A stretch of 64,000 nucleotides of DNA from a virus. A program made the translations under genes and the position numbers. The notes beneath the pieces were generated by a model. The model was not told the DNA's origin, searched no databases, and worked only from the letters and a program-made list of their open reading frames with translations. The stretch lies in IMG/VR virus record IMGVR_UViG_3300032046_006283, positions 1-64,000 of that record, one strand, 5' to 3'. Below are positions 10,168 through 64,000 of this stretch, in pieces (position 1 is the stretch's first letter; each line of letters starts with the position of its first letter).

Positions 10168-10170
10168 AGG

Positions 10171-44206: not shown

Positions 44207-45148
44207 CTATTTTCCTCCTTTAATTTTTTTCTTCGGTGGTTTGCAAAACCACGGCATTGCTCTATCATAAGTAAAAAATGGAACTATTGCTCCAACAGGA
44301 TATTTTTTAGCATATCTTTTACAAACTTCATAATAATCAGATAAAGGTATTCCAAGCCATTTACCTTCGTTCCACAGTTCATTCAATTTTGTACCTTTCG
44401 CAGGGCGACAATACATTGCATGCACTTGAATAACATTTGGTAAAGATAAAGAAAGTTTAATAGACTCTTCAAATTCTTTTTTCGCAGTTTCATTATCAGA
44501 AACATAAGGCTTTGCTAATATATAAATAACATATTTAAAATTATCATTTTTACTTACTACTTCTTTAACCTTTTCAAAATTGAATCCTTTATTAATTTCT
44601 TTGCTCCTATTTGGAAATACCGTCTCTAATCCTATACAAACTTCCATTTCAATTTCTGGTTTTTCATCCGGAATAAATTCTGGACGTGATTCTACTCTTA
44701 GTTTCTCTACTCCATTTTGTTTTAAATACTTAACAATATCTTTCCAAGAAACTTGTAATTGTTCAAAATCAAAAAATGATCCAGAGTTAAAAATTTTAAA
44801 CCAAGGAGGAAAACCTCCATATTTTATTTTATAATCATCTAATTGTTCCCAAACATTTAATGCTGTAGTAGTTAAATCAGTACCTTTTTCAAAACCACAA
44901 AAACAACATTTTCGCCAACTGCAAGGTCTTACAGTTAAACAAATTGTTTGTATATCTGTCCAAACTGGCTTTATATATTTAGACACCTTTTGAACTTTCA
45001 ACACTTCAACTTTATCTGTTTCATGCCCTGCTTTTTTCAATCCTTCCATGAGTACTTCTGTTACGTGAATTTCATCTATTGCTTCTAATCTAATCCACGC
45101 AAGATTCCCTTTATAATTAATATTCACAGCAAACATAGACATAACCAT
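44207..45148 (-). CDS. Radical SAM enzyme of the archaeosine-synthase (RaSEA/TIGR01210) type
   Basis: A 313-residue radical SAM protein. The cluster motif is C76-SWRK-C81-x-x-C84. Family-specific segments are NSGSFFDFEQL, RVESRPEF, CIGLETVFPNR, INKGFNFEKV and ILAKPYVSDNET, which match the RaSEA/TIGR01210 pattern closely. In archaea this enzyme cleaves the lysine adduct made by ArcS on preQ0 in tRNA to give archaeosine. Here it is encoded next to an ArcS-core (DUF5591) gene and with preQ0 genes and a DpdA-like gene in the window, so a role in converting preQ0 in DNA to deoxyarchaeosine is a strong inference. It has a predicted promoter of its own. Confidence 0.85.
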   Translation of the reverse strand: MVMSMFAVNINYKGNLAWIRLEAIDEIHVTEVLMEGLKKAGHETDKVEVLKVQKVSKYIKPVWTDIQTICLTVRPCSWRKCCFCGFEKGTDLTTTALNVWEQLDDYKIKYGGFPPWFKIFNSGSFFDFEQLQVSWKDIVKYLKQNGVEKLRVESRPEFIPDEKPEIEMEVCIGLETVFPNRSKEINKGFNFEKVKEVVSKNDNFKYVIYILAKPYVSDNETAKKEFEESIKLSLSLPNVIQVHAMYCRPAKGTKLNELWNEGKWLGIPLSDYYEVCKRYAKKYPVGAIVPFFTYDRAMPWFCKPPKKKIKGGK

Positions 45149-45204
45149 ATTTCCTCCTTATTAACTCAATGAATATAAAACTGATATATTTCATCTTCCT
45201 CTAT

Positions 45205-45216
45205 ATTATACACAAA
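45205..45216 (-). promoter_or_regulatory. Predicted promoter of the RaSEA-type gene
   Basis: Minus-strand TTTGTGTATAAT (-10 TATAAT at 45205-45210), about 55 bases ahead of the gene. It is identical over 12 bases to the box before the 188-residue gene at 52380. Confidence 0.5.
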
Positions 45217-45218
45217 CT

Positions 45219-46022
45219 TTATATTATATCTTTTGTTTTTTCAGCTTCAGTTAATATATCTATATCACACAATTTAATAATTTCAAGAAAAGGTACATAT
45301 CTATGAAAATTTCTAAACACTTCATATTTATTAATTGAAAAATATTGTTTGCATCGTAAATACACTTGCCACAAATCTGGATAACTATTTGTATAAGATA
45401 AAACAAAAGGATCATTCCAAAATTCTTCTGGAACAACTCCTATTGTAGTTATTACTACTTTATGATAATCTTCTAAAGGATATGGAAAAATATTATTCAC
45501 TACACTTCCATAAATTTCTTGATGTGTTTTAGAAACATTATAAGGTCTCTTAGCAGAACAAGGTAATAACAAGCACTTCTTTTTATCAGTTTTAAAATTG
45601 CACATTTTATCTAACAATTCACGAACATAAGACCTATTATAAGAATGGAAACTTGACATTACAGTTTTATTTGTTAATTTATCTTTAGTAATACCGCTTA
45701 AATCCGCTTGCATTAAAATATCAGAACATATAGGTGTAAATGACGCAAACATTTCTATTAAATCTCTTAGACAATTATTTTCTTGTGCTCGTTTTATCCA
45801 TTCCAAAATCTCTTCAATAGAATAAATTGTCCACAATCCATAATCAATGTCTTTCCTGATAGTTTCTCTTTCAACATCATGGCCAAAATAAATTAAAAAT
45901 GGCACTTGACTTAATGGTGCATTTTTTATTAACCATCTTTCTTTACGCCCGCGCGAAGCAAAAGAGCGTAAAGCAGTTCCATTATAGGTAAATGGATACT
46001 TTTTAAAATCTACTATATTCAT
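45219..46022 (-). CDS. ArcS-core (DUF5591) protein
   Basis: A 267-residue protein. The DUF5591 core lies at about 148-230: LLPCSAKRPYNVSKTH (152-167), then TIGVVPEEFW. These match the ArcS active-site region that transfers lysine to preQ0 in archaeal tRNA. Archaeal ArcS also has TGT-like and PUA domains; those are missing, and the first 145 residues here are unrecognised. Its place directly upstream of the RaSEA-type gene matches the two-step archaeosine pathway. Acting on DNA instead of tRNA is inferred from the phage context. Confidence 0.82.
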   Translation of the reverse strand: MNIVDFKKYPFTYNGTALRSFASRGRKERWLIKNAPLSQVPFLIYFGHDVERETIRKDIDYGLWTIYSIEEILEWIKRAQENNCLRDLIEMFASFTPICSDILMQADLSGITKDKLTNKTVMSSFHSYNRSYVRELLDKMCNFKTDKKKCLLLPCSAKRPYNVSKTHQEIYGSVVNNIFPYPLEDYHKVVITTIGVVPEEFWNDPFVLSYTNSYPDLWQVYLRCKQYFSINKYEVFRNFHRYVPFLEIIKLCDIDILTEAEKTKDII

Positions 46023-46163
46023 TAGATTCCTTTAAATTATAAAGGGAGATGTAGGAGTAGGACGATATATTAATTATTTCAATATTAATTATTTCAATTA
46101 CTTTTTTATTAATTCTTTCATCAATTTTTCCAAACATCTCCCTCTCAAATAAAAACCTTAAAG
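46023..46163. other. Non-coding gap with inverted and direct repeats
   Basis: The 141 bases between the DUF5591 gene and the SSB-like gene hold a perfect 10-bp inverted repeat, AGGGAGATGT at 46043-46052 and ACATCTCCCT at 46134-46143, and a tandem direct repeat of ATTAATTATTTCAAT. A 44-codon ORF (46003-46137) crosses the gap but its start sits directly on the ribosome site, so I do not call it. Function unknown. Confidence 0.4.
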
Positions 46164-46646
46164 TTAAAAGTCAATATCATCATCCACAGCCTTAGGCTTT
46201 ACTTTCGGCTTCTCTTCTTTCTTTTCCTCTTTCTTTGGTTCTGCAGTTTGTGTAGCTTTCTTTAAAGCAGATAACTCTTCTGCCTTTAAAGCTCTGCACT
46301 TTACAACGTTACAATAAGTCTGTGTTTTTCCTTCTTTCTCTTCAACCAAAATACGACATACCTTTCCAACAAGAGAATCAAAAGTAAACGTAGCACCTAT
46401 TTCTAATTCAAAAGAAGAATCTAAAGCCTTAATCCAAGTTGACGTCTTATTATCTGGAGTCACCTTTTTACTGGTAATACCAGTAACTTTCTTACCTTCA
46501 TTATCAGGATCATTTAAGACTTCAAAAGTAAATTGCACAAGAGGACTAAATTGTCCTTCTTTCTCATTTACATCAAATAACTTCGCAGTAAAAGATCCTT
46601 CGGTTTCCAAATAATCATTCTTCTCAACTTCCCCTTTAATCACCAC
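46164..46646 (-). CDS. ssb: Single-stranded DNA-binding-like protein with acidic tail
   Basis: A 160-residue OB-fold-type protein: SFTAKLFDVNEKEG, then SPLVQFTFEVL, LVGKVCRILVEE and YCNVVKCR. After a Lys/Glu linker it ends DDDIDF, the acidic tail that SSB-type proteins use to recruit partners. It lies with RecA and two unknown genes, so it probably coats ssDNA during replication and recombination. Confidence 0.7.
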   Translation of the reverse strand: MVIKGEVEKNDYLETEGSFTAKLFDVNEKEGQFSPLVQFTFEVLNDPDNEGKKVTGITSKKVTPDNKTSTWIKALDSSFELEIGATFTFDSLVGKVCRILVEEKEGKTQTYCNVVKCRALKAEELSALKKATQTAEPKKEEKKEEKPKVKPKAVDDDIDF

Positions 46647-46681
46647 TATTGTTCACCTCCTTAATTTTTTAATTTTATAGT

Positions 46682-47263
46682 TTAAAAATTATCATCATAT
46701 TTTTTGCCAATTACTTTTCGTTGAATTTCTCCTATCTCTATTTGTGTTTGTATTACTGTTAATTGTCTTGATATGTTTTTATCTGTTTTTTCAAATCCTT
46801 TCAACTTTTCACGGCAAATTTCAGTATGCGCTTTCGCATCATTTAATGCTTTTTCAGCAAAAAACTTTAACTTTCCAATATCTTCAATTTTTTCTTCTGC
46901 AGCTGCTTGTCTTAAATTTTGATTTGAAAGAGCAGCTACATCTTCAGATCTGAGTTGAATTCTTAGATATTTCTCATAAAACATTTTTGTATCATTAAAT
47001 AAAGAATTAAACTTATTTTCATTTGCAATTGCATTCATTACAATAGTAACAATACGCTCCATATAACTATTAATTGCAGCTATTTTCGCATTCAATTTAT
47101 CTAAACCAACAGAACTAGGGTCTGGGTCTAATGCAATAATATAATTATCTAATTCTTTTTCTATTTCAGAATAATCTAAAGGTTCTGTATTCTCAAATTT
47201 CTCTTGTAATGTTTCTAATTTTGCAAACCAAGGAATATTTTCAACCTTACTTTGAATTGCCAT
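46682..47263 (-). CDS. Unknown helical protein (193 aa) in the RecA/SSB cluster
   Basis: Almost entirely helical with an Ala-rich middle and a C terminus ending KKYDDNF, an acidic-hydrophobic tail reminiscent of SSB-partner tails. It overlaps the next gene by 17 bases. A role in recombination is suggested only by position. Confidence 0.5.
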   Translation of the reverse strand: MAIQSKVENIPWFAKLETLQEKFENTEPLDYSEIEKELDNYIIALDPDPSSVGLDKLNAKIAAINSYMERIVTIVMNAIANENKFNSLFNDTKMFYEKYLRIQLRSEDVAALSNQNLRQAAAEEKIEDIGKLKFFAEKALNDAKAHTEICREKLKGFEKTDKNISRQLTVIQTQIEIGEIQRKVIGKKYDDNF

Positions 47264-47531
47264 CTGTTTTCTCCAATATTTTTTTCAAAGATAAATCTAA
47301 TTCTTTATCTTTTTCTCTGGTCATTTTTATATCTATATTAACAAGAGCCTTCACAGCTTGAAACATTTGATTATTAATTTCTTTTAACTTTTCTTTATCT
47401 TCCAGTTTATCTAAATCTAATTCAATTTCTGCTTCTAAAATTGTAGGAAGAAAATCCCAAAAACTATAACTTAAAGAACTCGCAATTTTTCTTCCATATC
47501 CTTTTGTTATTTTAATAATTTTTAAAGCCAT
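47247..47531 (-). CDS. Small helical protein (94 aa) in the RecA/SSB cluster
   Basis: ATG at 47531, overlapping the recA stop, is preferred to 47567 inside recA. The product has a short hydrophobic/basic N terminus and a charged C-terminal helix. No family recognised. Confidence 0.5.
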   Translation of the reverse strand: MALKIIKITKGYGRKIASSLSYSFWDFLPTILEAEIELDLDKLEDKEKLKEINNQMFQAVKALVNIDIKMTREKDKELDLSLKKILEKTDGNSK

Positions 47532-47532
47532 C

Positions 47533-48561
47533 TTAAAAATCCTCCTCTTTATTTTCTTGAATATCACTATTTCTCTTTTCCCAAATCTTAGTATAAACTA
47601 AATCATATGTTACAGGATCTTTTAACAAAGACATAAATCCATCTTTACCATTTGCAGTAACTCTGTCATCATCAATAAGAGTATATTTAGGTCCTGACTT
47701 ACGAATTACATTCCTACGTAATCCTTCTTCTAAAAGTAAAAGTTCAAAATTAACACCTTTTTCATAAAGAACAGGAAATTCACCTCTTCTTCTTGGAGGA
47801 GCTAACTTATTTTTTACAACACAAACATCAATACTATGGCCCAAAAGAATGTCTCCTTTTTTAACATCTGACTTCATTACTTTCTTTACTTTATATCTTT
47901 GAGAAGCATAAAACTTTAAAGCTCTACCTCCAGGAGTCTTTTCAGGGTCGCCCCACATAACTCCAACTGCATCTCTTACTTGATTAACAAAAACTAAACA
48001 AGTTTCTGTTTTATTCAATTCAGGTGCAATTTTTCGTAACCCTTTACCCATTATACGTGCAAGAAGTGCCATTTGTTGATCTTCCATAGCACCTTCTATT
48101 TCTGCTTGAGGTACTAATCCAACAACAGAATCAATAACTACATATGCAAATATATTACTTTGAACAAATTCTAAAGCCATATCAAAAGCTTCTTCAGCAC
48201 TTACTTGACCTACTGCTTCGATCATATTTGTATCTATTCCATAAATTTCCATCCACTCTTTTGGAGTGCCATACTCTAAATCAAAATAGACAGAAGGTTT
48301 ATTATACTTCTTTTGTGCATTGCCCATTGCTTGAAGTGTTAACAAACTTTTACCACTGCTTTCTGGACCAAAAATTTCTATCATATTACCTTGAGGAAAA
48401 CCTCCTATACCTGAAGCAATATCAACAGTAATAATACCAGTTGAATAAGCATTCTTAGAAACTTTATCTAAATTTATTATTTTGTCTTTATATTTATTCT
48501 CCATGTATTTCTTAAACACTTTTGGATCTTTTGGAACTTCACCTTTACTACTTTTAGTCAT
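47533..48561 (-). CDS. recA: RecA recombinase
   Basis: A 342-residue RecA with Walker A GPESSGKS (65-72), Walker B ending VVIDSV and the L2-type region VNQVRDAVGVMWGDPEKTPG. The C terminus is acidic (KEEDF). It forms the strand-exchange filament with help from the SSB-like protein encoded downstream. It overlaps the DUF2283 gene upstream by 4 bases. Confidence 0.94.
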   Translation of the reverse strand: MTKSSKGEVPKDPKVFKKYMENKYKDKIINLDKVSKNAYSTGIITVDIASGIGGFPQGNMIEIFGPESSGKSLLTLQAMGNAQKKYNKPSVYFDLEYGTPKEWMEIYGIDTNMIEAVGQVSAEEAFDMALEFVQSNIFAYVVIDSVVGLVPQAEIEGAMEDQQMALLARIMGKGLRKIAPELNKTETCLVFVNQVRDAVGVMWGDPEKTPGGRALKFYASQRYKVKKVMKSDVKKGDILLGHSIDVCVVKNKLAPPRRRGEFPVLYEKGVNFELLLLEEGLRRNVIRKSGPKYTLIDDDRVTANGKDGFMSLLKDPVTYDLVYTKIWEKRNSDIQENKEEDF

Positions 48562-48770
48562 TCTTTATCTCCTTTCTTTATCTCTAAATCGAAAGATGTT
48601 TCATACATAGAGAAATTCACAATAGTGTAACCAACTATTTCTCCAGTATCCATATCCCTTCTTTGCACTGCTCCAGATTTATGATCATAACCAATAGCTG
48701 ATTTGGGTTTATCGAAAGCAATATAAAGAACATCTGAATCCTTATCATAGTCTAAGTGTAATATCTTCAT
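48558..48770 (-). CDS. DUF2283-family protein
   Basis: A 70-residue protein of the DUF2283 type: MKILHLDYDKDSDVLYIAF at the N terminus and the later DMDTGEIVGYTIVNFS. The family's molecular role is unknown; it is common in bacteria and often stands beside toxin-antitoxin or DNA genes. Confidence 0.75.
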   Translation of the reverse strand: MKILHLDYDKDSDVLYIAFDKPKSAIGYDHKSGAVQRRDMDTGEIVGYTIVNFSMYETSFDLEIKKGDKE

Positions 48771-48773
48771 CTT

Positions 48774-49178
48774 TTACTCCTTTTCTTCTTTCCACCTTTT
48801 TGCAAAATTTTTAATTGTATCTAATCCATAAAATCTCATGGATTTGTAAATTAACAATGGTGTTCGTTCTTCGGCAATTGGCCCGCAAAGCACACAGTTA
48901 ACTCCGGACTTAAATAATTCTAAAACTGCTTCTTTATCTTCTTCACTTGTATTAAAGAATATCCTTGGAACATCTTCTTCCTTCTTCCTCTTAAATAAAA
49001 TCTTAGGAAATTTCATTTTTGAAATACCTCCAGGCATTGTTCTATTATCAACATCTAAATCTACTACAATACCTCCGCATACTGAACACCATCTAACAAC
49101 AGTTGAACAACCTACACCATTTTCTAATGTTTCATAAATTATTTCTAACTCATGATCTTTTCCATCAATACATGGCAT
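48774..49178 (-). CDS. Unknown protein (134 aa) with Cys pairs
   Basis: Contains WCSVCGG in the first half and NCVLCGP in the second, so a zinc site is possible. Three bases separate it from the DUF2283 gene, and 15 from the DpdA-like gene. No family recognised. Confidence 0.5.
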   Translation of the reverse strand: MPCIDGKDHELEIIYETLENGVGCSTVVRWCSVCGGIVVDLDVDNRTMPGGISKMKFPKILFKRKKEEDVPRIFFNTSEEDKEAVLELFKSGVNCVLCGPIAEERTPLLIYKSMRFYGLDTIKNFAKRWKEEKE

Positions 49179-49193
49179 ACTTTTTCTCCTTCT

Positions 49194-50003
49194 TTAACTT
49201 TCACTATTATATTTTTCCATCGTCTCTATATTCTTTAATACAAGTTTTTCAACACTTTCCGAAACAGTTTTAATACCAAAATAATCATCAGGCCTTTTCG
49301 GAGCTTCAAAATATAAATCGTGTGTTTCTTTAATATCAATATCATTCAAAGCACATATAAACGCTTTTGAAGAATCAGCACTTCTAATAAATTCAAAACG
49401 TTTCAAATACTTAATCTCAATAGGATGTCCTCCTATACCAAGACAATGAAATTGTTTATTATATTTTGAGAAATTAAAATGTTTATTCAAATAACTTATA
49501 ACTGCAATCCTTAATAAACTTTTAGGAATACCCCACGCTCGAAATGCTTCATTTATAGCACCATATGAAAAACCTATAGTATCTACTTCATTCATTTGTA
49601 ATAACTCTAAAAAACATTTTTCATACTCATCAATAGTTTTTCCTTGAGGAACTGCCATTAAACTTAATGACTGAATAATTGATGATGTGTTATTTGATAA
49701 TTCATTCAGAGCTTCTTTCACACGTTGAATAGTTATTGCACCATCAAGATAACAATCTGGTAAAACTAATTCTTTAGCCCAAACCAATTCAGTTGCTTTA
49801 ATAACATCATCTAAAGGAAAAGCATTACCATATTCAAAAGCACCATTATCCATTATAATAAAATCATTTCTGAAACTTTTTTCTCGATACACCTCTTCAT
49901 ACTGCTTGTTTTTCAAAACTTCAGGTGCAATTAAAAGATGTATAGTAGAATTTTGAGTACACATTCTTACATAATTTACAGGAACAATATGACAAATCTT
50001 CAT
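49194..50003 (-). CDS. dpdA: DpdA-like DNA transglycosylase (TGT superfamily)
   Basis: The ATG at 50003 follows AAGGAG, giving 269 residues; the frame opens upstream at 50054 inside the kinase gene. TGT-fold motifs are FIIMDNGAFEYG (catalytic-type D52), VLPDCYLDG (D83), MAVPQGKT, IGFSYG and CLGIGGHPIE. DpdA enzymes of bacteria and phages swap guanine in DNA for a 7-deazaguanine (preQ0 or derivative). No PUA or tRNA-binding extension is present. With FolE2, QueC, QueE, an ArcS-core protein and a RaSEA-type protein in the same window, insertion of preQ0 into phage DNA is the likely role. Confidence 0.8.
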   Translation of the reverse strand: MKICHIVPVNYVRMCTQNSTIHLLIAPEVLKNKQYEEVYREKSFRNDFIIMDNGAFEYGNAFPLDDVIKATELVWAKELVLPDCYLDGAITIQRVKEALNELSNNTSSIIQSLSLMAVPQGKTIDEYEKCFLELLQMNEVDTIGFSYGAINEAFRAWGIPKSLLRIAVISYLNKHFNFSKYNKQFHCLGIGGHPIEIKYLKRFEFIRSADSSKAFICALNDIDIKETHDLYFEAPKRPDDYFGIKTVSESVEKLVLKNIETMEKYNSES

Positions 50004-50004
50004 T

Positions 50005-50541
50005 TTAAAACTCCTTGCAAATAATATCTTCAATATGTTTAACTCTTTCTTCAACAGAGCCTCTTATTATAAAGTAATTAGGATACAATGAATAAAAAGT
50101 CTCTAATAATTTTTGTATCTCACTATCAATAGTTTTTTGATACTCAATATCTTCAGCTCTAACACCATCCCTAACTAATGGAAATTCTATTGGAAGGTAA
50201 AAAACAAAATCTGCAAAATGTTGTGCTTCTAATTGACACAATGCAAATAATAATCTCAATACATAATCAGGTAATTTATTATTTACTGCATAAGCAGTTT
50301 GCCGTATTATAGAACTTACAGAAATAAAATCTTGTTTTGTATTTGTATTTAATTGATTCAAATACCTTCTAATTGTTGTTAACTGACTTTCTATGTCATT
50401 AGTTTTATTTATTTGAAATCCTTCTTGCTGTGCATTACGATGAATACCATCAATAAGGTGTAAAGAAGGATGTCTCTTTTGAATTTCCTTTGCTAAAACT
50501 GATTTACCTGTTCCTTGAGCACCTACTAATAAAATTTTCAT
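50005..50541 (-). CDS. P-loop kinase-like ATPase (AAA_28/NadR-type)
   Basis: A 178-residue protein with GAQGTGKS (7-14) and FADFVFYLP as a Walker-B-like region. The family includes nucleotide and nicotinamide-riboside kinases. In a block with NDK and dUTPase a nucleotide kinase is the likely role. The downstream DpdA-like start overlaps its stop. Confidence 0.7.
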   Translation of the reverse strand: MKILLVGAQGTGKSVLAKEIQKRHPSLHLIDGIHRNAQQEGFQINKTNDIESQLTTIRRYLNQLNTNTKQDFISVSSIIRQTAYAVNNKLPDYVLRLLFALCQLEAQHFADFVFYLPIEFPLVRDGVRAEDIEYQKTIDSEIQKLLETFYSLYPNYFIIRGSVEERVKHIEDIICKEF

Positions 50542-50553
50542 ATTTTTTCCTTC

Positions 50554-50997
50554 TTAAACAATTCCTATAATATTTGGAAATAATATCATTAACTCTCTTA
50601 AAAAAGAGTCTTGAGAATCAGAAATATGAATAGCATTAGCTGGTAATTTTGAACCAAATAATTGTCTAATTGTTCCTTCTTCTGCTTTTTCTGGATCAGT
50701 ATCACCCGCAAGTCTTCTTAAATTAGAAATGAATTGAGAATATGAAATACCCGAAGTATCTTCAACAACTAAAACTAAAACAGGATCAGAACTCATATAT
50801 CTAACATTACGTTCAAAAAAATCTTTTCCTTTATGTTCTTGATAAAACTCACAAGCCCTTTCATAACTTAATAGCATTGTTTGTGCAATTGTAATACGAC
50901 TTTTTCCTAACCATTCTATTATTGCAATTATTCTTCCAACATTACCTTCTTTAACTGCATCTGGTTTAATAATACATAAACATAAACATTTAGACAT
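50554..50997 (-). CDS. ndk: Nucleoside diphosphate kinase
   Basis: A 147-residue NDK that makes NTPs and dNTPs through a phospho-His. Family motifs are CIIKPDAVKEG (residues 8-18), the central GKDFFE and the active-site NAIHISDS. GTIRQLFG precedes it. Full length for the family. It would keep triphosphate pools high for phage replication. Confidence 0.9.
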   Translation of the reverse strand: MSKCLCLCIIKPDAVKEGNVGRIIAIIEWLGKSRITIAQTMLLSYERACEFYQEHKGKDFFERNVRYMSSDPVLVLVVEDTSGISYSQFISNLRRLAGDTDPEKAEEGTIRQLFGSKLPANAIHISDSQDSFLRELMILFPNIIGIV

Positions 50998-51009
50998 TTT
51001 TATTTCTCC

Positions 51010-51321
51010 TCACGATGATATCTCATCTAATTTTGAACCTTCCACCCAAAGGTTTCCTTCTCTATCCTTATAAGCAATTATATGTTCAATAAAAACACTA
51101 TGAGCAACGTAAACAAAAAGATTAACTTCACCTAACTTTTTCAATTCACTTTCTGGAATCTCTTTTGTTTCATTTGTAGGAAAATATAAATCCTTGCCAC
51201 CTAAATCTAATATATTTAATCCAGTTTCTTCATAAAATTGATCCACATTATCCCATCCACCTTCTTGAGCATATAATTCTGCTCCTCCTCCCATTTCTGA
51301 TAATATTTTAACCATTTCCAT
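51010..51321 (-). CDS. Unknown protein (103 aa)
   Basis: ATG at 51321 has an AGAGGAA site; the longer frame to 51375 starts weakly. A small alpha/beta protein with GGGAELYAQEGGWDNVDQFY near the N terminus. No family recognised. Confidence 0.5.
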   Translation of the reverse strand: MEMVKILSEMGGGAELYAQEGGWDNVDQFYEETGLNILDLGGKDLYFPTNETKEIPESELKKLGEVNLFVYVAHSVFIEHIIAYKDREGNLWVEGSKLDEISS

Positions 51322-51337
51322 TTTTATTCCTCTTTTC

Positions 51338-51421
51338 TTATAGATCTCTGTGATGTCCAGGTTGAGGATTCCCAAAAAATAATTTACAACAGAACTGATA
51401 TAAACAACACTTGATCATCAT
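51338..51421 (-). CDS. Possible Cys-rich micro-ORF (27 aa)
   Basis: An AAGGAG site precedes tandem ATGs, and the product has two CC pairs (KCCLYQFCCKLFF). It overlaps the upstream end of the frame of the next gene. Very short, so coding status is uncertain. Confidence 0.3.
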   Translation of the reverse strand: MMIKCCLYQFCCKLFFGNPQPGHHRDL

Positions 51422-51436
51422 CTCCTTATTCAAATT

Positions 51437-51772
51437 TTAAAATTTACTCGGGAAAATTGATATTGGAAAAGTAAGTATCATATAAACTATGCATAACATA
51501 AATATTCCCATAATTGGTAAAAATATTCTACCGAACCAATCATTTTCTATTTCATATTCCTTCGGTGGAAATGGTGGGAAATCATCGTCACCAATTAATC
51601 CAGCAACTACAGCAGCTGCAGTAAACTCAGTCCCGCTATAGATACTATATAGAAGTTGAAACGCTTTTGGTATAAATGCTGATGAAATCAGAAGAACTCC
51701 GAATGCACTTACTAGTAAAAATATAAATATCAATGATACTCCCATAGCTATTTCTAAAATATGCCAAATCAT
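51437..51772 (-). CDS. Membrane protein with two to three helices (111 aa)
   Basis: Hydrophobic segments at about residues 5-30 and 83-105, with a central region containing GDDDFPPFPPKEYE. Good ribosome site. No family recognised. Confidence 0.5.
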   Translation of the reverse strand: MIWHILEIAMGVSLIFIFLLVSAFGVLLISSAFIPKAFQLLYSIYSGTEFTAAAVVAGLIGDDDFPPFPPKEYEIENDWFGRIFLPIMGIFMLCIVYMILTFPISIFPSKF

Positions 51773-56873: not shown

Positions 56874-57052
56874 TACTTTTTATCTGCTTTTTTAACTGAC
56901 TTAAAAGGATCAAAATTTAATTCTATCATACGTTCAATCTTATCAAATTCAGCTTGAAGTTCAATATACCGTAAGTATTTACGATATTTAAACGAAAATA
57001 CTATTTTAAACAAATGAATAAGTCGATATAAAATTTTCTTAAATTTATTCAA
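56867..57052 (-). CDS. Small basic protein (61 aa)
   Basis: A hydrophobic/basic N terminus (LIHLFKIVFSFKYRKYLRY) and a charged C terminus. It overlaps the polymerase start by 7 bases, so translational coupling is likely. Function unknown. Confidence 0.5.
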   Translation of the reverse strand: MNKFKKILYRLIHLFKIVFSFKYRKYLRYIELQAEFDKIERMIELNFDPFKSVKKADKKYW

Positions 57053-57061
57053 ACTTAATTT

Positions 57062-57223
57062 CTATTTTAACTTAAAAAATATTTGTTTCAATGTTTTTAA
57101 ATTAAGATACTTTCTTTCTTTTAAAATCAAAATGAACCTTTTAGTAATTCTATACCACCAATGCCAAAGATAAAAAATAAATCCAATCCAAAATATTAAA
57201 AACACAACGCTTAAATAATACAA
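57062..57223 (-). CDS. Small membrane protein with TTG start (53 aa)
   Basis: An open frame with no ATG but a TTG at 57223 after GAAGGA. The product has one hydrophobic Trp-rich helix (VVFLIFWIGFIFYLWHWW) and a basic tail. The lack of any other gene in this 170-base gap supports it, but the start is unusual. Confidence 0.45.
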   Translation of the reverse strand: MYYLSVVFLIFWIGFIFYLWHWWYRITKRFILILKERKYLNLKTLKQIFFKLK

Positions 57224-57430
57224 TTATTTTCCTTCAACAAATTTAGCTTTTTTTGAATCATTTCCAGGAAATCCAGAACCTTTAAAAATAATACCTCCAG
57301 AACCTCCTGTAATAAGACTGGGGATTTTCTCACCACATTGTGAACATTTATCAACATGTTCAACATTCATAGGCATTTCTTTTTCCCATTTAATATTGCA
57401 TTTTTTACAAAAAAATTCATATGTAGCCAT
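57224..57430 (-). CDS. FmdB-family zinc-ribbon protein
   Basis: ATG at 57430, giving 68 residues; a frame opens further up at 57475. MATYEFFCKKC then CSQCGE is the putative regulatory FmdB/CxxC zinc ribbon, followed by a Gly-rich KGSGFPGND tail typical of the family. Its role is unknown; related proteins often lie in replication or chaperone operons. Confidence 0.75.
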   Translation of the reverse strand: MATYEFFCKKCNIKWEKEMPMNVEHVDKCSQCGEKIPSLITGGSGGIIFKGSGFPGNDSKKAKFVEGK

Positions 57431-57443
57431 AAAATACCTTTTA

Positions 57444-57674
57444 CTACTTATTCTGGCTGAGTTTATAAGATGCATACATCTTTTGTAAATGTTCTATAAA
57501 TGAAGACAATTCCCTAACTTTAATAAAAAATATTCCAGTGTCAGAATCAGTTACTAAAAGATTCTCTTCTTTTAAATACTTGATAAATCCTTCATGCATT
57601 AATTCAACTCTAAGATCACTATTCTCTGTTGGAGTAATACACAATTCCAATTCTGGAATAAGAGTATTATCCAT
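57444..57674 (-). CDS. Unknown protein (76 aa)
   Basis: A small acidic alpha/beta protein with IPELELCITPTEN near the N terminus and a helical C terminus. It overlaps nothing essential and has a good ribosome site. No family recognised. Confidence 0.5.
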   Translation of the reverse strand: MDNTLIPELELCITPTENSDLRVELMHEGFIKYLKEENLLVTDSDTGIFFIKVRELSSFIEHLQKMYASYKLSQNK

Positions 57675-57684
57675 AAGTCACCTC

Positions 57685-58152
57685 CTATTTATTTTTATTT
57701 TCAATTAATTTTTGTTTCAATTTTTCCCAAAAAGCACATGGACTTGCAGCCATTATTTCATATTGCCAAATATTCTTTAACTCAAAAAATTTATCATTCG
57801 CAACACTATCTTCAAGATAGTTTTTAGTCATAAAAGTCCATATAATTAAAATAGAATTAGGATTATTTTCTAAAAATTTCTCTATTCTTCTTCCATAACT
57901 ATCTATTAATCCTGGAGAGCCTAACATTATTCCTCCATAATCTACTACTAAAATATCAAAATTTTCATTATCTAAAGAAAGGTCCCTAAGATCTCTAAAT
58001 ACAAAATCAATCTCCGGCATAAATTCTTTAAAATATTTCTTAATCGTTTTTCTCTCATCTTCTGGAGTTGTTTCTATAATTAATGGCCTCATAAAATCAA
58101 CAAATATTCCAACCGTTAATTTTTTTGTTTTACTTTTTTCTTTTTTACTCAT
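57685..58152 (-). CDS. Unknown protein (155 aa), Rossmann-like
   Basis: After a Lys-rich start, VGIFVDFMRPLIIE and FDILVVDYGGIMLG suggest a Rossmann or receiver-like alpha/beta fold; SILIIWTFMTKN supports another beta strand. No active-site motif. It precedes a small membrane gene. Confidence 0.5.
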   Translation of the reverse strand: MSKKEKSKTKKLTVGIFVDFMRPLIIETTPEDERKTIKKYFKEFMPEIDFVFRDLRDLSLDNENFDILVVDYGGIMLGSPGLIDSYGRRIEKFLENNPNSILIIWTFMTKNYLEDSVANDKFFELKNIWQYEIMAASPCAFWEKLKQKLIENKNK

Positions 58153-58299
58153 CTAATTTATCTCCTCTATTTCTTCATATTGAGTATCAAATTTTTGTAG
58201 ATCAATATCTTGGATTATCCCCATTGTTAACATTACTAAATATAAAACGATAAAGTAAATAATAATTCGCTTTAATATTTTTTTAATATTTATTTTCAT
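58153..58299 (-). CDS. Small membrane protein (48 aa)
   Basis: Starts in a 4-base ATGA overlap with the dUTPase stop. One hydrophobic helix (IIIYFIVLYLVMLTMGII) follows a basic start; the tail is acidic. The overlap with a real gene supports it. Function unknown. Confidence 0.6.
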   Translation of the reverse strand: MKINIKKILKRIIIYFIVLYLVMLTMGIIQDIDLQKFDTQYEEIEEIN

Positions 58300-58733
58300 C
58301 TACCACTACTTCCATATCCTTTTTTTCCTCTTTCACTCTTTGAAAGTTTATCAACTTGAATCAACTTAGTTTTTGGTAATCTAAAGAAAATAATTTGAGC
58401 TATCTTATCACCTTTTAAAATTTCCATAGCTTCTGCTTTATTCGAACATTGTGAACTATTCCGAATAAAAATAGACACTTCATTTCTATAACCAGAATCT
58501 ATAACTCCATGATGCACAACTTTACCTTCTTTTCCATAACTACTACGAGTAAAAACTATACCAACCCATCCAGGAGGAATTTCAAAGCACACTCTAGTAT
58601 GTACTTCAGTGCATTTACCAAAAGGAATTATAACATCTTCAGTCGCATACAAATCCCACCCAGCATCATATTCATACGCTTGAGTTGGCAACTTAGCATC
58701 TGGATGTAATAACTTACATTTTACTTTAATCAT
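58296..58733 (-). CDS. dut: dUTPase
   Basis: A 145-residue trimeric dUTPase. All five motifs are visible: DAGWDLYA, RSSYGKEG, GVIDSGYRNE, GDKIAQIIF and the C-terminal RGKKGYGSSGR. It hydrolyses dUTP to dUMP, keeping uracil out of DNA, which fits the UDG domain on the polymerase. Full length for the family. Confidence 0.94.
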   Translation of the reverse strand: MIKVKCKLLHPDAKLPTQAYEYDAGWDLYATEDVIIPFGKCTEVHTRVCFEIPPGWVGIVFTRSSYGKEGKVVHHGVIDSGYRNEVSIFIRNSSQCSNKAEAMEILKGDKIAQIIFFRLPKTKLIQVDKLSKSERGKKGYGSSGR

Positions 58734-58745
58734 AATTTTATCCTC

Positions 58746-59108
58746 TCATCTCATCATCGAATTAATTATACAAACTATTTCTTTCCAGTTATCTTCAAAT
58801 CTTATACCCCTGTCATCAATATAAACATCTGCAACTACTTTTCCTTCAATTCCTTCATCAACCTTATCAAAAGGAATATTATTTTCTCTCAAAAACTTTT
58901 CCATAATTTGTTTTTGAGCTGCTCTTTCAGTAATACTTGAATGTATCATAGCATTTGTTCTACAAGATGTAACAATAATGAAACATCCTAAATAATCTTT
59001 CAATAAATTAATACTATAAACAACATCTTCCTTCAAAGGTCCTATTTCAGGATATGTATCTTCAACTATAGTTCCATCAAAATCTATTGCAACATAAAAT
59101 GGTCTCAT
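58746..59108 (-). CDS. HAD-like phosphatase (120 aa)
   Basis: A small HAD-superfamily protein with the motif I nucleophile region AIDFDGTIVED (DxD), the motif II region IVTSCR and the motif IV ADVYIDDRG. Such small HAD proteins in phages resemble 5'-nucleotidases and polynucleotide phosphatases. The next gene overlaps its start by 4 bases. Confidence 0.75.
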   Translation of the reverse strand: MRPFYVAIDFDGTIVEDTYPEIGPLKEDVVYSINLLKDYLGCFIIVTSCRTNAMIHSSITERAAQKQIMEKFLRENNIPFDKVDEGIEGKVVADVYIDDRGIRFEDNWKEIVCIINSMMR

Positions 59109-59671
59109 TGTACACTCCTAACCTTATAACAAGCTTGTTGAATATTATCAAATTCTTCTGCAAAATTTTGCATTACAAACCTACTCCAAGAAGCTAAATC
59201 CAAATCTTTATCAAAATCTAAAAATCCAGTAGCCCTAACAGGACAATTTTCTCCTACTTCAATATTTAATCCTATATGTATAAGGCCTGAAACCAAAGAC
59301 TTTGTTGCAATTGAAACAGAAAACTTTTTATCATTAATAAAAATATCATCTCCTTTTCGTTCTATTGACATATCTTCCAAACTAGCTCTCCGTTGAAGAT
59401 GATCAACAATTATTGAAATAAAAAGTCTTTGAAAAGCAACTGTTTCTCTTAAAGAGGCATCAAAAATTTCAATAATAAAATGTAACATTTTTTCACTACT
59501 AATATAATCTCCGGCTAAACGATCTTCACAATCAACCAAATGTTCTCTCACTTTCGCAGGTCCTATAAAACAAACAATACTATTACCTACAAGATCATTT
59601 TCATAACCAAAAAGCGAATGCAGCTGTGTACCATCATACTTTAATTCATTTTCTAAAAATTTATATTTCAT
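59105..59671 (-). CDS. DUF366-family protein
   Basis: A 188-residue protein of the archaeal-type DUF366 family: LKYDGTQLHSLFG near the N terminus, CFIGPAKV, MLHFIIEIFD, QRLFISIIVDHL and the VSIATKSLVSGLIHIGLN core. The family is distantly related to lipoate/biotin ligase-fold proteins; its role is unknown. It is adjacent to queC, within the 7-deazaguanine gene group, and may be an unrecognised step or a partner in base modification. Confidence 0.8.
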   Translation of the reverse strand: MKYKFLENELKYDGTQLHSLFGYENDLVGNSIVCFIGPAKVREHLVDCEDRLAGDYISSEKMLHFIIEIFDASLRETVAFQRLFISIIVDHLQRRASLEDMSIERKGDDIFINDKKFSVSIATKSLVSGLIHIGLNIEVGENCPVRATGFLDFDKDLDLASWSRFVMQNFAEEFDNIQQACYKVRSVQ

Positions 59672-59673
59672 AT

Positions 59674-60375
59674 TTACTCCTTTTGATATTCTATTGTATC
59701 TTTTAAATTGTTTGCTTCAAACGCTGCTAACCTTTCAATACAAGCGGGACATTTACCACAAGAAGGTTTACCTTTATAACAGGAATGAGTTAAATGATAT
59801 GGAACACCTAATTTCATTCCTATATCAACGATTTCTATCTTTGTCTTTTCAACAAATGGTGTATGAATAAATACTTCCACTCCATGCGTAGAACCTAAAC
59901 TTAATGCCTTTTCTAAGCAAGTAAAGAAAGGTCTACGGCAATCTCTATATGATTCATAATCTTCTTTCACAGGAGTCATATAAATTTCAATAGGATTAAG
60001 TTCTAAAGATTCTCCGTATGCCGCTGCTAATGTAGCTAACATTACATTACGAAAAGGAACAACTGTTTGAATCTGATCTTCCATATTTTCAGGAACCTTC
60101 CAAGTATTATCTGTTAAAGCACTATGACCTATGTGAGTTAAATCAAAATTTAAAACCTTTAAATCTTTTACTACATAATCTCCATACCTTTTTTGATACT
60201 CTTCAACAACCTTTTTTGCAGCTTCCAATTCCACGACATGTTTTTGACCATAATTAACACTCAAAGAATAAATTTCACTCATTACAAATTCAAATTTAGG
60301 ATCTAACAAATAACCGAGTAAAGTTGCCGAATCCATACCACCTGATAAAAGAATTATACATCTTGGTCTTGTCAT
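59674..60375 (-). CDS. queC: 7-cyano-7-deazaguanine synthase (QueC)
   Basis: A 233-residue PP-loop ATPase that converts 7-carboxy-7-deazaguanine to preQ0 with ammonia. The PP-loop is LLSGGMDSAT (9-18). SVNYGQKH, VPFRNVM and MTPVKEDYESYRDCRRPFF follow, and the zinc site is at the C terminus: HSCYKG then CGKCPAC. No amidotransferase domain is fused (unlike the GAT-QueC fusions of some phages), so a separate ammonia source is expected. Confidence 0.93.
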   Translation of the reverse strand: MTRPRCIILLSGGMDSATLLGYLLDPKFEFVMSEIYSLSVNYGQKHVVELEAAKKVVEEYQKRYGDYVVKDLKVLNFDLTHIGHSALTDNTWKVPENMEDQIQTVVPFRNVMLATLAAAYGESLELNPIEIYMTPVKEDYESYRDCRRPFFTCLEKALSLGSTHGVEVFIHTPFVEKTKIEIVDIGMKLGVPYHLTHSCYKGKPSCGKCPACIERLAAFEANNLKDTIEYQKE

Positions 60376-60389
60376 TTTATTATTCTCCT

Positions 60390-60860
60390 TTATTTCTTAT
60401 TGTTTTCATAAGGAAATTCGATCCAACTATCTGCGTCTGCCCCTGCAATGAAATAATCAGGATCAAACTGCGAACCTCTTTTATAATATAATACACTTGT
60501 TCTAATATTATTGAACCCTTTTTCTTTATATAAATCAACTACTACCTGCATTGTCTTTCCCGTATCACATAAATCATCAATGATCAAAATTTTACTTTCT
60601 TTTGTGATATCAGGAAAGCACAAATATGAAGGTTTTCCAAGTTTTAACTTTGATTGTTTATTTTCTTTAGTATAAGAACTAGCAACAATTATGTCTAGTG
60701 GAACGTTATAAGCTTCAGATATTATAAGTCCTGGAAGAAGTCCTCCACGAGAAATCGCAACAACAAGATCAATTTCTTCTTGAGCATGAACCAACAACAT
60801 TTCTTTAAGTTTATTAATTAGTTGTAAATAATATTCCCAAGATACTTTTTCTATATTCAT
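60390..60860 (-). CDS. Purine phosphoribosyltransferase-like protein
   Basis: A 156-residue type I phosphoribosyltransferase. The PRPP motif is ILIIDDLCDTGKT; AISRGGLLPG is the preceding conserved loop. The layout is that of xanthine/hypoxanthine-guanine PRTases. It may recycle guanine released when DpdA exchanges it from DNA, an inference from its place among deazaguanine genes. Confidence 0.82.
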   Translation of the reverse strand: MNIEKVSWEYYLQLINKLKEMLLVHAQEEIDLVVAISRGGLLPGLIISEAYNVPLDIIVASSYTKENKQSKLKLGKPSYLCFPDITKESKILIIDDLCDTGKTMQVVVDLYKEKGFNNIRTSVLYYKRGSQFDPDYFIAGADADSWIEFPYENNKK

Positions 60861-61642
60861 TTATTAACCTCTAATAAACTATTTATTGTTTTTTCGCAAC
60901 ATTCTTTTTTTATATCTATAACAAAACATCTTCTACCTGTTTTTTCTGCCTCAACTAATGTAGTGCCGGATCCTACAAAAGGATCAAATATAATATCATT
61001 AATAACTGAGTACATTCGAATAAGTCTGTAAGGTATTTCATTTGGAAATGGAGACATTTTTTCATAATCTTTTTTACCTGCAATTGCCCAAATTTGAGAA
61101 AACCACTTATTTCTTTCTTCAAAAGTATAAGCACTTGCATATCTATTTTTATCTTTTGACAAAAACTTTCTAATATTTCCTTTTCTAAATAATAAAATAA
61201 ATTCACAGTCAAGAGTTACATAAGCATTAGTTGGAAGCATTCCACTCCCTAAAAAACTATTAGGTTTATTTGTTGGTTTTTTCCACAAAATATAAGGTAA
61301 AACATTAAAACCCAAATTTCTAAAATTATTCAATATTATAGAATGATTTTCCCATAATTGAAAATTATCATTAATTTTCCGTAACGCATCTCCTATATTA
61401 ATACAAACAATACCTCCTTCAATAACACTATCAAATAAACAATCCCATACTCTATTCAAATATAAATGTTGAGACTGAAAGTTTCCTTCCCAATTCCACT
61501 TTTCAAACATAGGATAAGGAGGAGATGTAACTACTAAATTAACTAAATGTGTTCCTAAAAGATATTTAATATGCGCAGGATTTGTAGCATCCCCCCACAT
61601 TACTCGATGTTTTCCATTAGTCCAAAATTCGCCAAAATTCAC
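60857..61642 (-). CDS. DNA methyltransferase (N4-cytosine/N6-adenine, beta class)
   Basis: A 261-residue methyltransferase. Motif IV is TSPPYPMFEKW near residue 38; the SAM-binding motif I, DPFVGSGTTLVEAE, is C-terminal, the order of the beta class. The TSPPY form is typical of N4-cytosine methylases. No restriction partner is visible, so a protective or regulatory role is likely. Confidence 0.85.
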   Translation of the reverse strand: MNFGEFWTNGKHRVMWGDATNPAHIKYLLGTHLVNLVVTSPPYPMFEKWNWEGNFQSQHLYLNRVWDCLFDSVIEGGIVCINIGDALRKINDNFQLWENHSIILNNFRNLGFNVLPYILWKKPTNKPNSFLGSGMLPTNAYVTLDCEFILLFRKGNIRKFLSKDKNRYASAYTFEERNKWFSQIWAIAGKKDYEKMSPFPNEIPYRLIRMYSVINDIIFDPFVGSGTTLVEAEKTGRRCFVIDIKKECCEKTINSLLEVNK

Positions 61643-62304
61643 TATACACCTCTTTTGTTTCCCCAGATTATTTTATGTATTTGAAGACTAAGTTTTACAT
61701 TAAGATTATCTTTTAAAATCCATTTCGCAAGATCTTTTGGATTCAATTTTTCCCAAACCGGAGAAAACAAAATACTTCCTTTAATATTAAAATTTGTAAT
61801 AATTTTCTTAGCAAAATTATAATCATTTTTATTAGCAATTACAAATTTCACCTCATCATCTTGACGAATATCTTTTAAATTAATCCAACACATTTTTTCA
61901 GTCATTCCAGTAGAAGGACATTTTATATCCATGCTAAAAGTCACATATGCTAAATACTTTTGTATAGGAATACTTCCGTTAGTTTCAATTAAAATAAAAT
62001 ATCCATTATTATATAATTTCTCAACAAGAACAAAAGAAGTAGGATCTAACAATGGTTCTCCTCCTGAAAGTAATATATTTTTACAATTATATTTTTTTAC
62101 TTGATTTAAAATGTCATTTATTGACATTTCTTTTCCTTGATTATAAGCATATGGAGTATCACAAAAACCTTTTCCATTATAATTACAACGTAAATTACAT
62201 CCTGTAGTTCTTATAACAATAATACGAGTTCCACTAGTTTTCCCTTCGCCAGATAAAGTATAATATATTTCATTAATTTTCAATTTATCATCTTTCAATA
62301 TCAT
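61642..62304 (-). CDS. queE: 7-carboxy-7-deazaguanine synthase (QueE)
   Basis: A 220-residue radical SAM enzyme: EIYYTLSGEGKTSGTR, RTTGCNLRC, LLSGGEPLL, ILIETNGS and a later VKFVI. It makes the 7-deazaguanine ring of CDG. The cluster Cys residues are C36, C40 and C48, spaced CX3CX7C because of extra residues between the second and third, rather than the usual CX3CX2C. The start overlaps the downstream end of RNase HII by 17 bases. Confidence 0.9.
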   Translation of the reverse strand: MILKDDKLKINEIYYTLSGEGKTSGTRIIVIRTTGCNLRCNYNGKGFCDTPYAYNQGKEMSINDILNQVKKYNCKNILLSGGEPLLDPTSFVLVEKLYNNGYFILIETNGSIPIQKYLAYVTFSMDIKCPSTGMTEKMCWINLKDIRQDDEVKFVIANKNDYNFAKKIITNFNIKGSILFSPVWEKLNPKDLAKWILKDNLNVKLSLQIHKIIWGNKRGV

Positions 62305-62914
62305 TAATTACTCCTTGTTTCAACCAACTTTTTATAGGTTCAAAAGTTTTTCTATGATATGGAGTAAGTCCATATTTTTTAATTGCTTCAAGATGCTGTT
62401 TTGTACCATATCCAATATTAGTTCCCCATCTGTATACTTTATACTTTGGATTTTCGCCAACTAACTTTTTTATATATCTATCTCTTAATACTTTTGCAAT
62501 AACAGAAGCAGCCATAATTGCAGAAATTTTTGTATCCCCTTTCACAATCCATCTTTGAGATGCTTGTAACTTTTCTATATGTCCTTTTCCATCTATTAAT
62601 ACTTTATCTGGAATTCCTTTTCTTTCAATTACTTTATCAATAGCTCTTTTCATAGCTAAACGTTCTGCATAATAAATATTCAATTCTTCAATTTCCTCAA
62701 CACTCGCATGACCTATTGCAAAAGTAATTTTTAAATCTTCAATTTGTTTAAAAACTTCTTCTCTTTGTTTAAAATTTAATTTTTTTGAATCATTTAATCC
62801 TTCGATATTATATTTTTTATCCCACCATATAGCACCTGCAACGACAGAGGCTACCAAACTTCCACAGCCACAAGCATCACATCCAATTATATGTTTAAAT
62901 ATTTTCATTACCAT
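62288..62914 (-). CDS. rnhB: RNase HII variant
   Basis: A 208-residue RNase HII-like protein with the family layout (LNDSKKLNFKQRE, VLIDGKGHIEK, SAIMAASVIAKVLRDRY and TPYHRKTFEP). The usual catalytic motif DEAGRG appears as DACGCG (D13, A14), so the second acidic residue is replaced by Ala and the Arg by Cys. This could weaken or abolish cleavage, or shift specificity. The active-site changes are clear in the sequence; the consequence is inferred. Another start at 62908 is possible. Confidence 0.85.
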   Translation of the reverse strand: MVMKIFKHIIGCDACGCGSLVASVVAGAIWWDKKYNIEGLNDSKKLNFKQREEVFKQIEDLKITFAIGHASVEEIEELNIYYAERLAMKRAIDKVIERKGIPDKVLIDGKGHIEKLQASQRWIVKGDTKISAIMAASVIAKVLRDRYIKKLVGENPKYKVYRWGTNIGYGTKQHLEAIKKYGLTPYHRKTFEPIKSWLKQGVINDIER

Positions 62915-63210
62915 CCATCTCCGCTATCTGGCCAAGGGTCCATCAATTCTTCTGTGGTTATTCCTAATAATCTCATCATTTGATTACTGCTCATACCCTC
63001 AGTTCCAGTATCTACTTTGATTGATTCATTTTTCCAACATTCATCTACAGAATTATTTAGATTAGTTTCTATTCCATAATTTAATTGTGCCCCTTCATAT
63101 CGCGCGTAAAATATCTTTCCAATGTCTAATTCTCCTTCCCATTGAGAAGGATACGCGCCAGAAGTTTTACGTAATTTTTTAAGTTTTAATCCAAGATTAA
63201 TTGATTCCAT
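62908..63210 (-). CDS. Unknown protein (100 aa)
   Basis: A small alpha/beta protein ending with SGDGW. Its stop overlaps the RNase HII start; a good ribosome site precedes it. No family recognised. Confidence 0.5.
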   Translation of the reverse strand: MESINLGLKLKKLRKTSGAYPSQWEGELDIGKIFYARYEGAQLNYGIETNLNNSVDECWKNESIKVDTGTEGMSSNQMMRLLGITTEELMDPWPDSGDGW

Positions 63211-63223
63211 TTTTATTCTCCTT

Positions 63224-64000
63224 TTAAAAATCCCAATTTCTTTTAAAATAAGCTACTGCATTATGTGCGTGAATACTTTCAAAAGAAATAACTTTAACAC
63301 TATAACCTTTAATATTAGATATTTTATCTAGAGCAAGAGCAGTATCCCTTGCAACATCTTCTACAAACTTTGGATTCTTAAAAGAAAATTCAGTAACATA
63401 CTTTTCATCTGGTCTTTTCAGTACAGGATAAATTCCACAACTACCCATTTTTTCTAATATCGAAACAACATCTTCAATCCATAAAGGTTTTCCAACAAAG
63501 TTCAAACGTGCTGTTACAAGCGCTCTCTGATTATGTGCTCCAAATTTGCTTATTTCTTTACTGCAAGGACATAAAGTAATTATAGGAACAGATACCTCTA
63601 AATAAAACTCATATTCTTCAGAAGTTAATCGTCCAACAAAAGCACATTCATATCCTTGAATTCCAGCAACTTTTTTTACAGGTGATTCTTTCGGAATAAA
63701 ATACTTAAATTTTATACTTGCATATGAATCTTTTGTTTTAAGGCTCCTTTTTAATTCTTTCAAAAATTTCTTTAACTTTTTCGAATTCATTGTTTTATAA
63801 CGATAATTCATTAAAGTAACAGCAAAACGGCTCATATTTATACCTTTTATATCTTCTGAAAGATCACCATACATTGATACAATCGCTTGAGTATGTTGAT
63901 ATTTTCTTTTTTCTTTCCTACCTACTAATATTGGAAAACTAACATCTTCTATACCAACTCTATGAAGAGGAATTCCGCGTTCATCTTTCGTAGCTTGCAC
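63224..64000 (-). CDS. folE2: GTP cyclohydrolase FolE2 (5' end cut by window edge)
   Basis: The last 258 residues of FolE2, which forms dihydroneopterin triphosphate from GTP, the first step to preQ0 (and folate). KDERGIPLHRVGIEDVSFP is at the N-terminal edge; TLCPCSKEISKFGAHNQRAL carries the catalytic Cys. Only a few residues (the usual M...VQ) seem to be missing beyond the window. With QueC and QueE it supplies the deazaguanine pathway. Confidence 0.92.
   Translation of the reverse strand: MQATKDERGIPLHRVGIEDVSFPILVGRKEKRKYQHTQAIVSMYGDLSEDIKGINMSRFAVTLMNYRYKTMNSKKLKKFLKELKRSLKTKDSYASIKFKYFIPKESPVKKVAGIQGYECAFVGRLTSEEYEFYLEVSVPIITLCPCSKEISKFGAHNQRALVTARLNFVGKPLWIEDVVSILEKMGSCGIYPVLKRPDEKYVTEFSFKNPKFVEDVARDTALALDKISNIKGYSVKVISFESIHAHNAVAYFKRNWDF

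Follow-up and report, generated by a model that had tools for sequence, protein, structure and literature searches.

Deoxyarchaeosine (dG+) in phage DNA has so far been known from phages with a Gat-QueC fusion, and the locus studied here raises the question of whether an uncultured bacterial virus could reach this base by a second, lysine-dependent route, employing the ArcS and RaSEA enzymes known until now from archaeal tRNA. The window analysed is a stretch of 64,000 nucleotides corresponding to positions 1 to 64,000 of the 73,124-base IMG/VR virus record IMGVR_UViG_3300032046_006283 (hereafter G000). An earlier note made from the sequence alone had listed FolE2, QueE, an unfused QueC, a DpdA-like transglycosylase without tRNA-binding domains, an ArcS-core DUF5591 protein and a RaSEA-type radical SAM protein in this window, and had proposed a near-complete, lysine-dependent pathway to deoxyarchaeosine acting on DNA. 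Our analysis confirmed that all these genes are present on the minus strand, with scores far from chance. QueC (59674-60375, minus strand; 233 aa) is a single-domain protein matching PF06508 with 180.6 bits, QueE (61642-62304, minus strand) matches TIGR04349 with 217 bits and TIGR03963 with 186 bits, and FolE2, GTP cyclohydrolase I type B (63224-64000, minus strand, continuing to record position 64114), scores 242 bits against NF010200, over the equivalog cut-off of 215. Furthermore, the record extends past the window and holds QueD at record positions 64065-64514 (PHROG 2389, E 7e-33), so that the set for preQ0 synthesis is complete, beyond what could be seen within the window.

The gene predicted to insert preQ0 into DNA is the DpdA-like ORF at 49194-50054 (minus strand), whose likely true start is at 50000, where a GGAG box precedes an ATG. 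It has no Pfam hit, but its AlphaFold2 model (pLDDT 90.5) has a predicted TGT fold without PUA domain, the top Foldseek hits being all tRNA-guanine transglycosylases, among them the archaeosine TGT 1iq8 and bacterial TGTs (prob 1.00, E down to 1e-7). An alignment of 12 sequences showed D69, D100, VPQG, H203-L-G and D227 as invariant (numbering of the 286-aa ORF), these including the two conserved aspartates and the PQG motif of the TGT superfamily. The tblastn hits are annotated as DNA guanine transglycosylase in Flavobacterium phage immuto, placing the transglycosylase with phage DpdA proteins. The DpdA ORF of a related phage (G001), at positions 9980-10795 of its locus L158, is likewise open.

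The ArcS-core gene (45219-46022, minus strand; 267 aa) scores 38.2 bits against PF17884/DUF5591, over the gathering cut-off of 26, and matches the archaeosine synthase family NF040592 (E 1e-14) over residues 68-201 only. It has no TGT-like N-terminal or PUA domain and its 53.9 bits fall well short of the 440 bits set for full-length archaeosine synthase, so the protein is a divergent homologue. It carries the ArcS signature PC-x3-(K/R)PY-x2-S-x2-H as PCSAKRPYNVSKTH at residues 154-167, and the best Foldseek hit of its AlphaFold2 model was 2q07 (AF0587; prob 1.00, E 1e-3), although this model is only moderate (pLDDT 72.5, residues 1-65 below 50). The signature is not rigid in phages: G001 has SCSAERPY, that is, SC for PC and ER for KK/KR. 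Degenerate DNA patterns of the signature, in KKPY and K-AGR-PY versions, found no viral contig, presumably because of this variability, and the K-K-P-Y version hit almost only archaea.

Lying 70 bases downstream of the ArcS core is the RaSEA-like radical SAM gene (44207-45148, minus strand; 313 aa), which is preceded by a strong Shine-Dalgarno sequence, AAGGAGG, before the ATG. Its best NCBIfam family is TIGR01210 (79.5 bits, E 2.5e-22), and phmmer retrieved Archaeoglobales RaSEA with 6.5e-29. TIGR01210 was also the best family for the homologues in G001 (105 bits) and in an unrelated phage (L209; 61 bits), but all three remain below the curated equivalog cut-off of 212 bits. Alignment with 14 archaeal RaSEA and 2 fusion proteins revealed the cluster cysteines in the RaSEA spacing C-x-W-x2-C-x2-C (C76, W78, C81, C84; the [4Fe-4S] motif being C76-x4-C81-x2-C84), together with the RaSEA motifs SGSF(F/L)D, ESRPEF, IGLET and NKGF. 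The window protein and its G001 counterpart keep all the family motifs, whereas L209 RaSEA keeps part of them, lacking the ESRPEF and SGSF letters, and L209 ArcS keeps only C..KKPY of its signature. A maximum-likelihood tree did not place the phage RaSEA within the archaeal family, and its position therein is unresolved. It could be argued that the gene is instead a queuine-lyase (QueL) or MnmL/YtqA relative not tied to archaeosine, since a PDB sequence search hit the queuine lyase 6p78 (E 1e-9) with the same cysteine spacing. However, TIGR01210 exceeds the next family, MnmL (28.7 bits), by 51 bits, Archaeoglobales RaSEA scores 94 bits against 41 for QueL, and ESRPEF is present in RaSEA and absent in the one QueL seen, which together with the gene context makes this alternative very unlikely. 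The two genes fall in the ArcS and RaSEA families, not in unrelated ones, and the interpretation given in the earlier note is supported, albeit on the basis of divergent homologues.

Is this pair a peculiarity of a single genome? Comparison with other phages showed that it stays together while moving, being located next to DnaB in G001 and between SSB and an ATPase gene in G000, and being absent from a third phage (G020) that has preQ0 genes and DpdA but in which those flanks abut. In the unrelated phage L209/L210 the order is FolE, one ORF, DpdA, ArcS, RaSEA (overlapping), PolA and then QueD, QueE and QueC, an arrangement that ties the pair to the DNA transglycosylase. Besides phages, Altiarchaeales and Diapherotrites encode RaSEA-ArcS core fusions (L142, L143) without TGT or PUA part, presumably for tRNA, showing that exactly these two modules belong together. 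A further TIGR01210 hit (L211/G032, 210 bits) showed no 7-deazaguanine genes in the 15.8-kb locus read and no DUF5591 in its contig.

Taken with published biochemistry, these findings favour, with moderate confidence, a DNA-modification pathway of a tailed phage of bacteria in which FolE2, QueD, QueE and QueC make preQ0 from GTP, DpdA exchanges guanines in phage DNA for preQ0 (dPreQ0), and the ArcS-core protein, in complex with the RaSEA-like enzyme, adds the amine of a free lysine to the nitrile of dPreQ0, the adduct being then cleaved by RaSEA so that the nitrogen stays to give dG+. That the substrate is DNA, the donor lysine, the product dG+ and the purpose protection from host restriction enzymes is inferred, no chemistry having been measured. 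It has been reported that only the ArcS-RaSEA complex transfers lysine, and that ArcS does not use free preQ0 but accepts preQ0 nucleoside 5'-phosphate, so a tRNA body is not required (PMC11298593), and that dG+ in phage 9g type DNA gives EcoRI resistance (PMC6884629). Enterobacteria phage 9g likewise has preQ0 genes plus DpdA, with predicted dG+ in DNA, but uses a Gat-QueC fusion. In our phage QueC is unfused and no QueF family gene (PF14489) was found in G000, G001 or G020, records that may be incomplete, so neither the Gat-QueC nor the QueF-like route is evident. As the characterised homologues of ArcS and RaSEA are tRNA enzymes (PMC11298593), the pair could alternatively make archaeosine in host tRNA during infection. 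We regard this as improbable given the lack of a tRNA-binding PUA domain in ArcS or DpdA, the absence of phage tRNA genes in the window, the location of the pair directly behind DpdA in L209 and the affiliation of the transglycosylase with phage DpdA proteins. With respect to the archaeal tRNA pathway (ArcTGT, ArcS, RaSEA), the same three activities by family and the same signature motifs are found on a bacterial phage genome, with a transglycosylase of phage DpdA type, an ArcS without PUA or TGT-like domain and, by inference, DNA as substrate. In the material searched here, this would be the first case of the full archaeal tRNA chemistry retargeted to DNA.

ArcS homologues in phages are not new in themselves, a point on which the earlier note, which left open whether the combination had been described, needs correction. 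Vibrio phage nt-1 carries DpdA2 and an ArcS core next to preQ0 genes, its role having been left unclear in the 2019 survey of phage 7-deazaguanines (PMC6884629). The new element is the RaSEA partner: tblastn with an archaeal RaSEA-ArcS fusion gave no RaSEA match in nt-1, no phage with both RaSEA and ArcS was found by tblastn among 50,697 deposited phages, and our literature search retrieved no RaSEA on a phage, although prior description cannot be excluded because a 2023 paper on further phage 7-deazaguanines (doi 10.1093/nar/gkad657) was not covered. The Sulfolobus virus STSV1, an archaeal virus, also has a TGT-like gene adjacent to an ArcS core (ORF18-ORF19), without a RaSEA hit in the virus. 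The DNA of nt-1 contains mostly dPreQ0, with dADG and a trace of dG+, and its authors raised the idea that the ArcS homologue works like DpdC (PMC6884629). In our phage this would mean nitrile hydration to dADG by the ArcS core and an unrelated function for the radical SAM gene, a possibility that we consider unlikely in view of the RaSEA adjacency in two phage lineages and the fusion in archaea.

Alternatively, the pair could make a different end product in DNA, either the lysine adduct itself or another radical-processed 7-deazaguanine. The phage proteins diverge strongly from the archaeal ones (25-36% identity), and Vibrio phages GR11A/GR7B pair an ArcS core and QueC with a lysine 2,3-aminomutase-like radical SAM and a GNAT gene, so lysine-based variants may exist. 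Nonetheless, the RaSEA-specific motifs and cluster cysteines kept in the window protein speak against such a product, which seems doubtful. In a broader and equally tentative view, it can be speculated that phages use a class of amino-acid-on-preQ0 DNA hypermodification in which an ArcS core couples lysine (or a lysine derivative) to preQ0 in DNA and a radical SAM partner, RaSEA here and a lysine 2,3-aminomutase-like enzyme in Vibrio and perhaps Pseudomonas putida phages, decides the final base, so that products other than dG+, including lysine-bearing bases, occur in phage DNA.

Other genes accompany the pathway. A P-loop NTPase of unknown role (50005-50541, minus strand) overlaps the DpdA ORF upstream, and this order is kept in G001 and G020. 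The gene order in phages phiST and BSP7 suggested a conserved kinase partner of DpdA across phages, but pairwise comparison gave no similarity and the order is kept only within G000, G001 and G020. A phosphoribosyltransferase (60390-60860, minus strand; PF00156, 68.6 bits) is embedded in the preQ0 cluster and is kept beside QueC in G001, G020 and L209. Finally, a DUF366 protein (59105-59671, minus strand; PF04017, 185 bits) is a companion of preQ0 genes, being also found next to QueC, QueE and QueD in methanogens (L183/L184).

The DNA under study represents the first 64,000 bases of a 73,124-base IMG/VR virus record with a GC content of 29%, and no tRNA genes were found in the window. The record holds ordinary tailed-phage genes, among them those for a terminase large subunit and an exonuclease, and PolA with a UDG domain, RecA and RNase HII were recognised from sequence. 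The host is most likely a bacterium, as indicated by an L,D-transpeptidase-like gene with the HGCVRL motif (L002:12637-13197, L002 being a locus of this same record), a bacterial-type FolE2 scoring over its cut-off and strong Shine-Dalgarno boxes.

Searches with curated models confirmed the presence of FolE2, QueE and QueC, whereas QueD, which is missing from the window, lies just beyond its edge and overlaps FolE2 (record 64065-64514). Therefore, the gene set for preQ0 supply is complete. QueE (61642-62304) shows an unusual cluster spacing, CNLRCNYNGKGFCD (C-x3-C-x7-C), whereas the orthologue in the related phage G001 has the usual C-x3-C-x2-C. QueC is a single-domain protein and no QueF family gene was found in this or the two related records, so the two other published ways from preQ0 to archaeosine in phages, Gat-QueC and QueF-like, are not evident. 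DUF366 (59105-59671), a family of unknown function with a known structure (2ddz), sits beside QueC in all three related phages and also occurs in preQ0 operons of methanogens, in the order QueC-DUF366-QueE-QueD in one locus (L183:1486-2061) and DUF366-QueD-QueE in another (L184:1492-2124), being an uncharacterised companion of preQ0 synthesis. A phosphoribosyltransferase gene of unknown role in the pathway likewise recurs in preQ0 clusters of unrelated phages (window 60390-60860; L209:15460-16101; L188:3840-4235). On the other hand, the N4/N6 DNA methyltransferase gene at 60857-61642 sits inside the preQ0 cluster of this phage only, with no hit in G001 or in the third related phage, G020, at the threshold used.

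The gene assigned to DpdA (49194-50054) matches no Pfam or NCBIfam model, but it hits phage genes that are either annotated as DNA guanine transglycosylase or located inside preQ0 clusters. Structure prediction with 11 viral relatives yielded a model of pLDDT 90.5, whose best Foldseek matches in the PDB are archaeosine and queuosine transglycosylases. Twelve sequences share two aspartates, a VPQG motif and an HxLG motif. The likely start of the gene is at 50000, where a GGAG box precedes ATG, and the 268-286 residues leave no room for a PUA domain.

RaSEA is the best curated family for the radical SAM gene (79.5 bits, the next family scoring 28.7). When compared with archaeal proteins fetched from 14 genomes with clear RaSEA plus two with fusions, the phage protein was found to keep the three cluster cysteines, W78, SGSF-D, ESRPEF, IGLET and KGF. 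It scores 94 bits against Archaeoglobales RaSEA but 41 bits against the queuine lyase 6p78, and the Elp3 and MnmL/YtqA paralogues score far lower. A phylogenetic tree keeps the protein on the RaSEA side, although weakly, and does not resolve its place. The curated equivalog cut-off of 212 bits is not reached, so this RaSEA-like protein is a divergent homologue.

The neighbouring gene carries DUF5591 over its cut-off and the archaeal ArcS signature (PCSAKRPYNVSKTH). A DNA pattern for the archaeal form of this signature, run over 257 billion bases of genomes, retrieved almost only archaeal records, an exception being a Tannerella bin. The homologous part spans residues 68-201 against archaeal-length models, the flanking TGT-like and PUA domains being missing. 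The predicted structure (pLDDT 72.5, N-terminus unmodelled) matches 2q07, AF0587 of Archaeoglobus. A different arrangement was noticed in a 683-aa haloarchaeal ORF (L038:2730-4778), which joins an intact-looking TGT domain and an ArcS core.

Three lines of evidence indicate that the ArcS core and RaSEA-like genes belong together and with DpdA. Firstly, G001, a 168-kb relative sharing 60 of 89 genes, has the same pair (75% and 67% identity) but next to DnaB, whereas in the window the pair lies between SSB and an SbcC-like ATPase gene. G020, which shares 48 genes including all preQ0 genes, DUF366 and DpdA (57%), lacks both genes, and its SSB and ATPase genes abut with about 50 bases between them. 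The pair thus comes, goes and moves as one unit on top of preQ0 and DpdA. Secondly, a profile scan revealed an unrelated phage (L209, a 53,965-base contig, with the near-identical L210) encoding GTP cyclohydrolase I, one small gene, DpdA, ArcS core, RaSEA (overlapping ArcS by 16 bases), PolA, and then QueD, QueE, QueC and a phosphoribosyltransferase, all on one strand within 11 kb; its DNA has no near match among deposited phages. Thirdly, in Altiarchaeales and Diapherotrites archaea the same two modules are fused in one protein of about 440 aa with no TGT or PUA domain (ORFs of 433 aa in locus L142 and 446 aa in locus L143).

In Thermococcus, ArcS adds lysine to preQ0 in tRNA and RaSEA converts the adduct to archaeosine; only the complex transfers lysine, and the free preQ0 base is not a substrate but preQ0 nucleoside 5'-phosphate is (PMC11298593). 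Therefore, a tRNA body is not needed and the step is expected to occur after base exchange. In E. coli, DpdA and Gat-QueC of phage 9g put dG+ into DNA and block EcoRI (PMC6884629). The natural reading of our findings is that preQ0 is made, exchanged into DNA by DpdA and then turned into dG+ by ArcS core and RaSEA with lysine, although substrate, donor and product are all inferred.

Phage ArcS homologues were already reported in 2019, the DNA of Vibrio phage nt-1 holding dPreQ0, dADG and a little dG+, and their function was then called unclear (PMC6884629). Our tblastn searches with the window RaSEA and with an archaeal fusion against 50,697 phage records found ArcS-core relatives (nt-1, STSV1/2, Synechococcus phages) but no RaSEA gene beside them, the few radical SAM hits lying in records such as Salmonella contigs and one unannotated phage sequence. 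In the 2.9 million IMG/VR contigs, and within the limited sensitivity of the scan, the pair was seen in G001 and in the L209/L210 lineage besides the window's own record. No paper naming RaSEA with a phage was found in the literature searched, which did not include the 2023 follow-up survey. The modification class and the DNA transglycosylase are therefore known, and what appears as new is the finishing module of inferred lysine type.

Other combinations around the ArcS core were also observed. In the Sulfolobus virus STSV1 (L192:5112-6453), ORF18 is a TGT-like protein with a VDSGGY motif and directly precedes an ArcS-core gene, ORF19, making up a minimal transglycosylase and ArcS pair in an archaeal virus. 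The Vibrio phages GR11A/GR7B (L005:11848-20365 and the same region of L006) cluster an ArcS core, two QueC genes, a lysine 2,3-aminomutase-like radical SAM and a GNAT gene, and P. putida jumbo phages carry the aminomutase near a QueC-like gene (L191:8863-10098), which may mean a beta-lysine DNA modification. Finally, beyond the window edge, L002:13543-14844 (record 71543-72844) holds a gene with dozens of tandem GNQI/VRNQ-type pentapeptide-like repeats that is also open in other frames on both strands.
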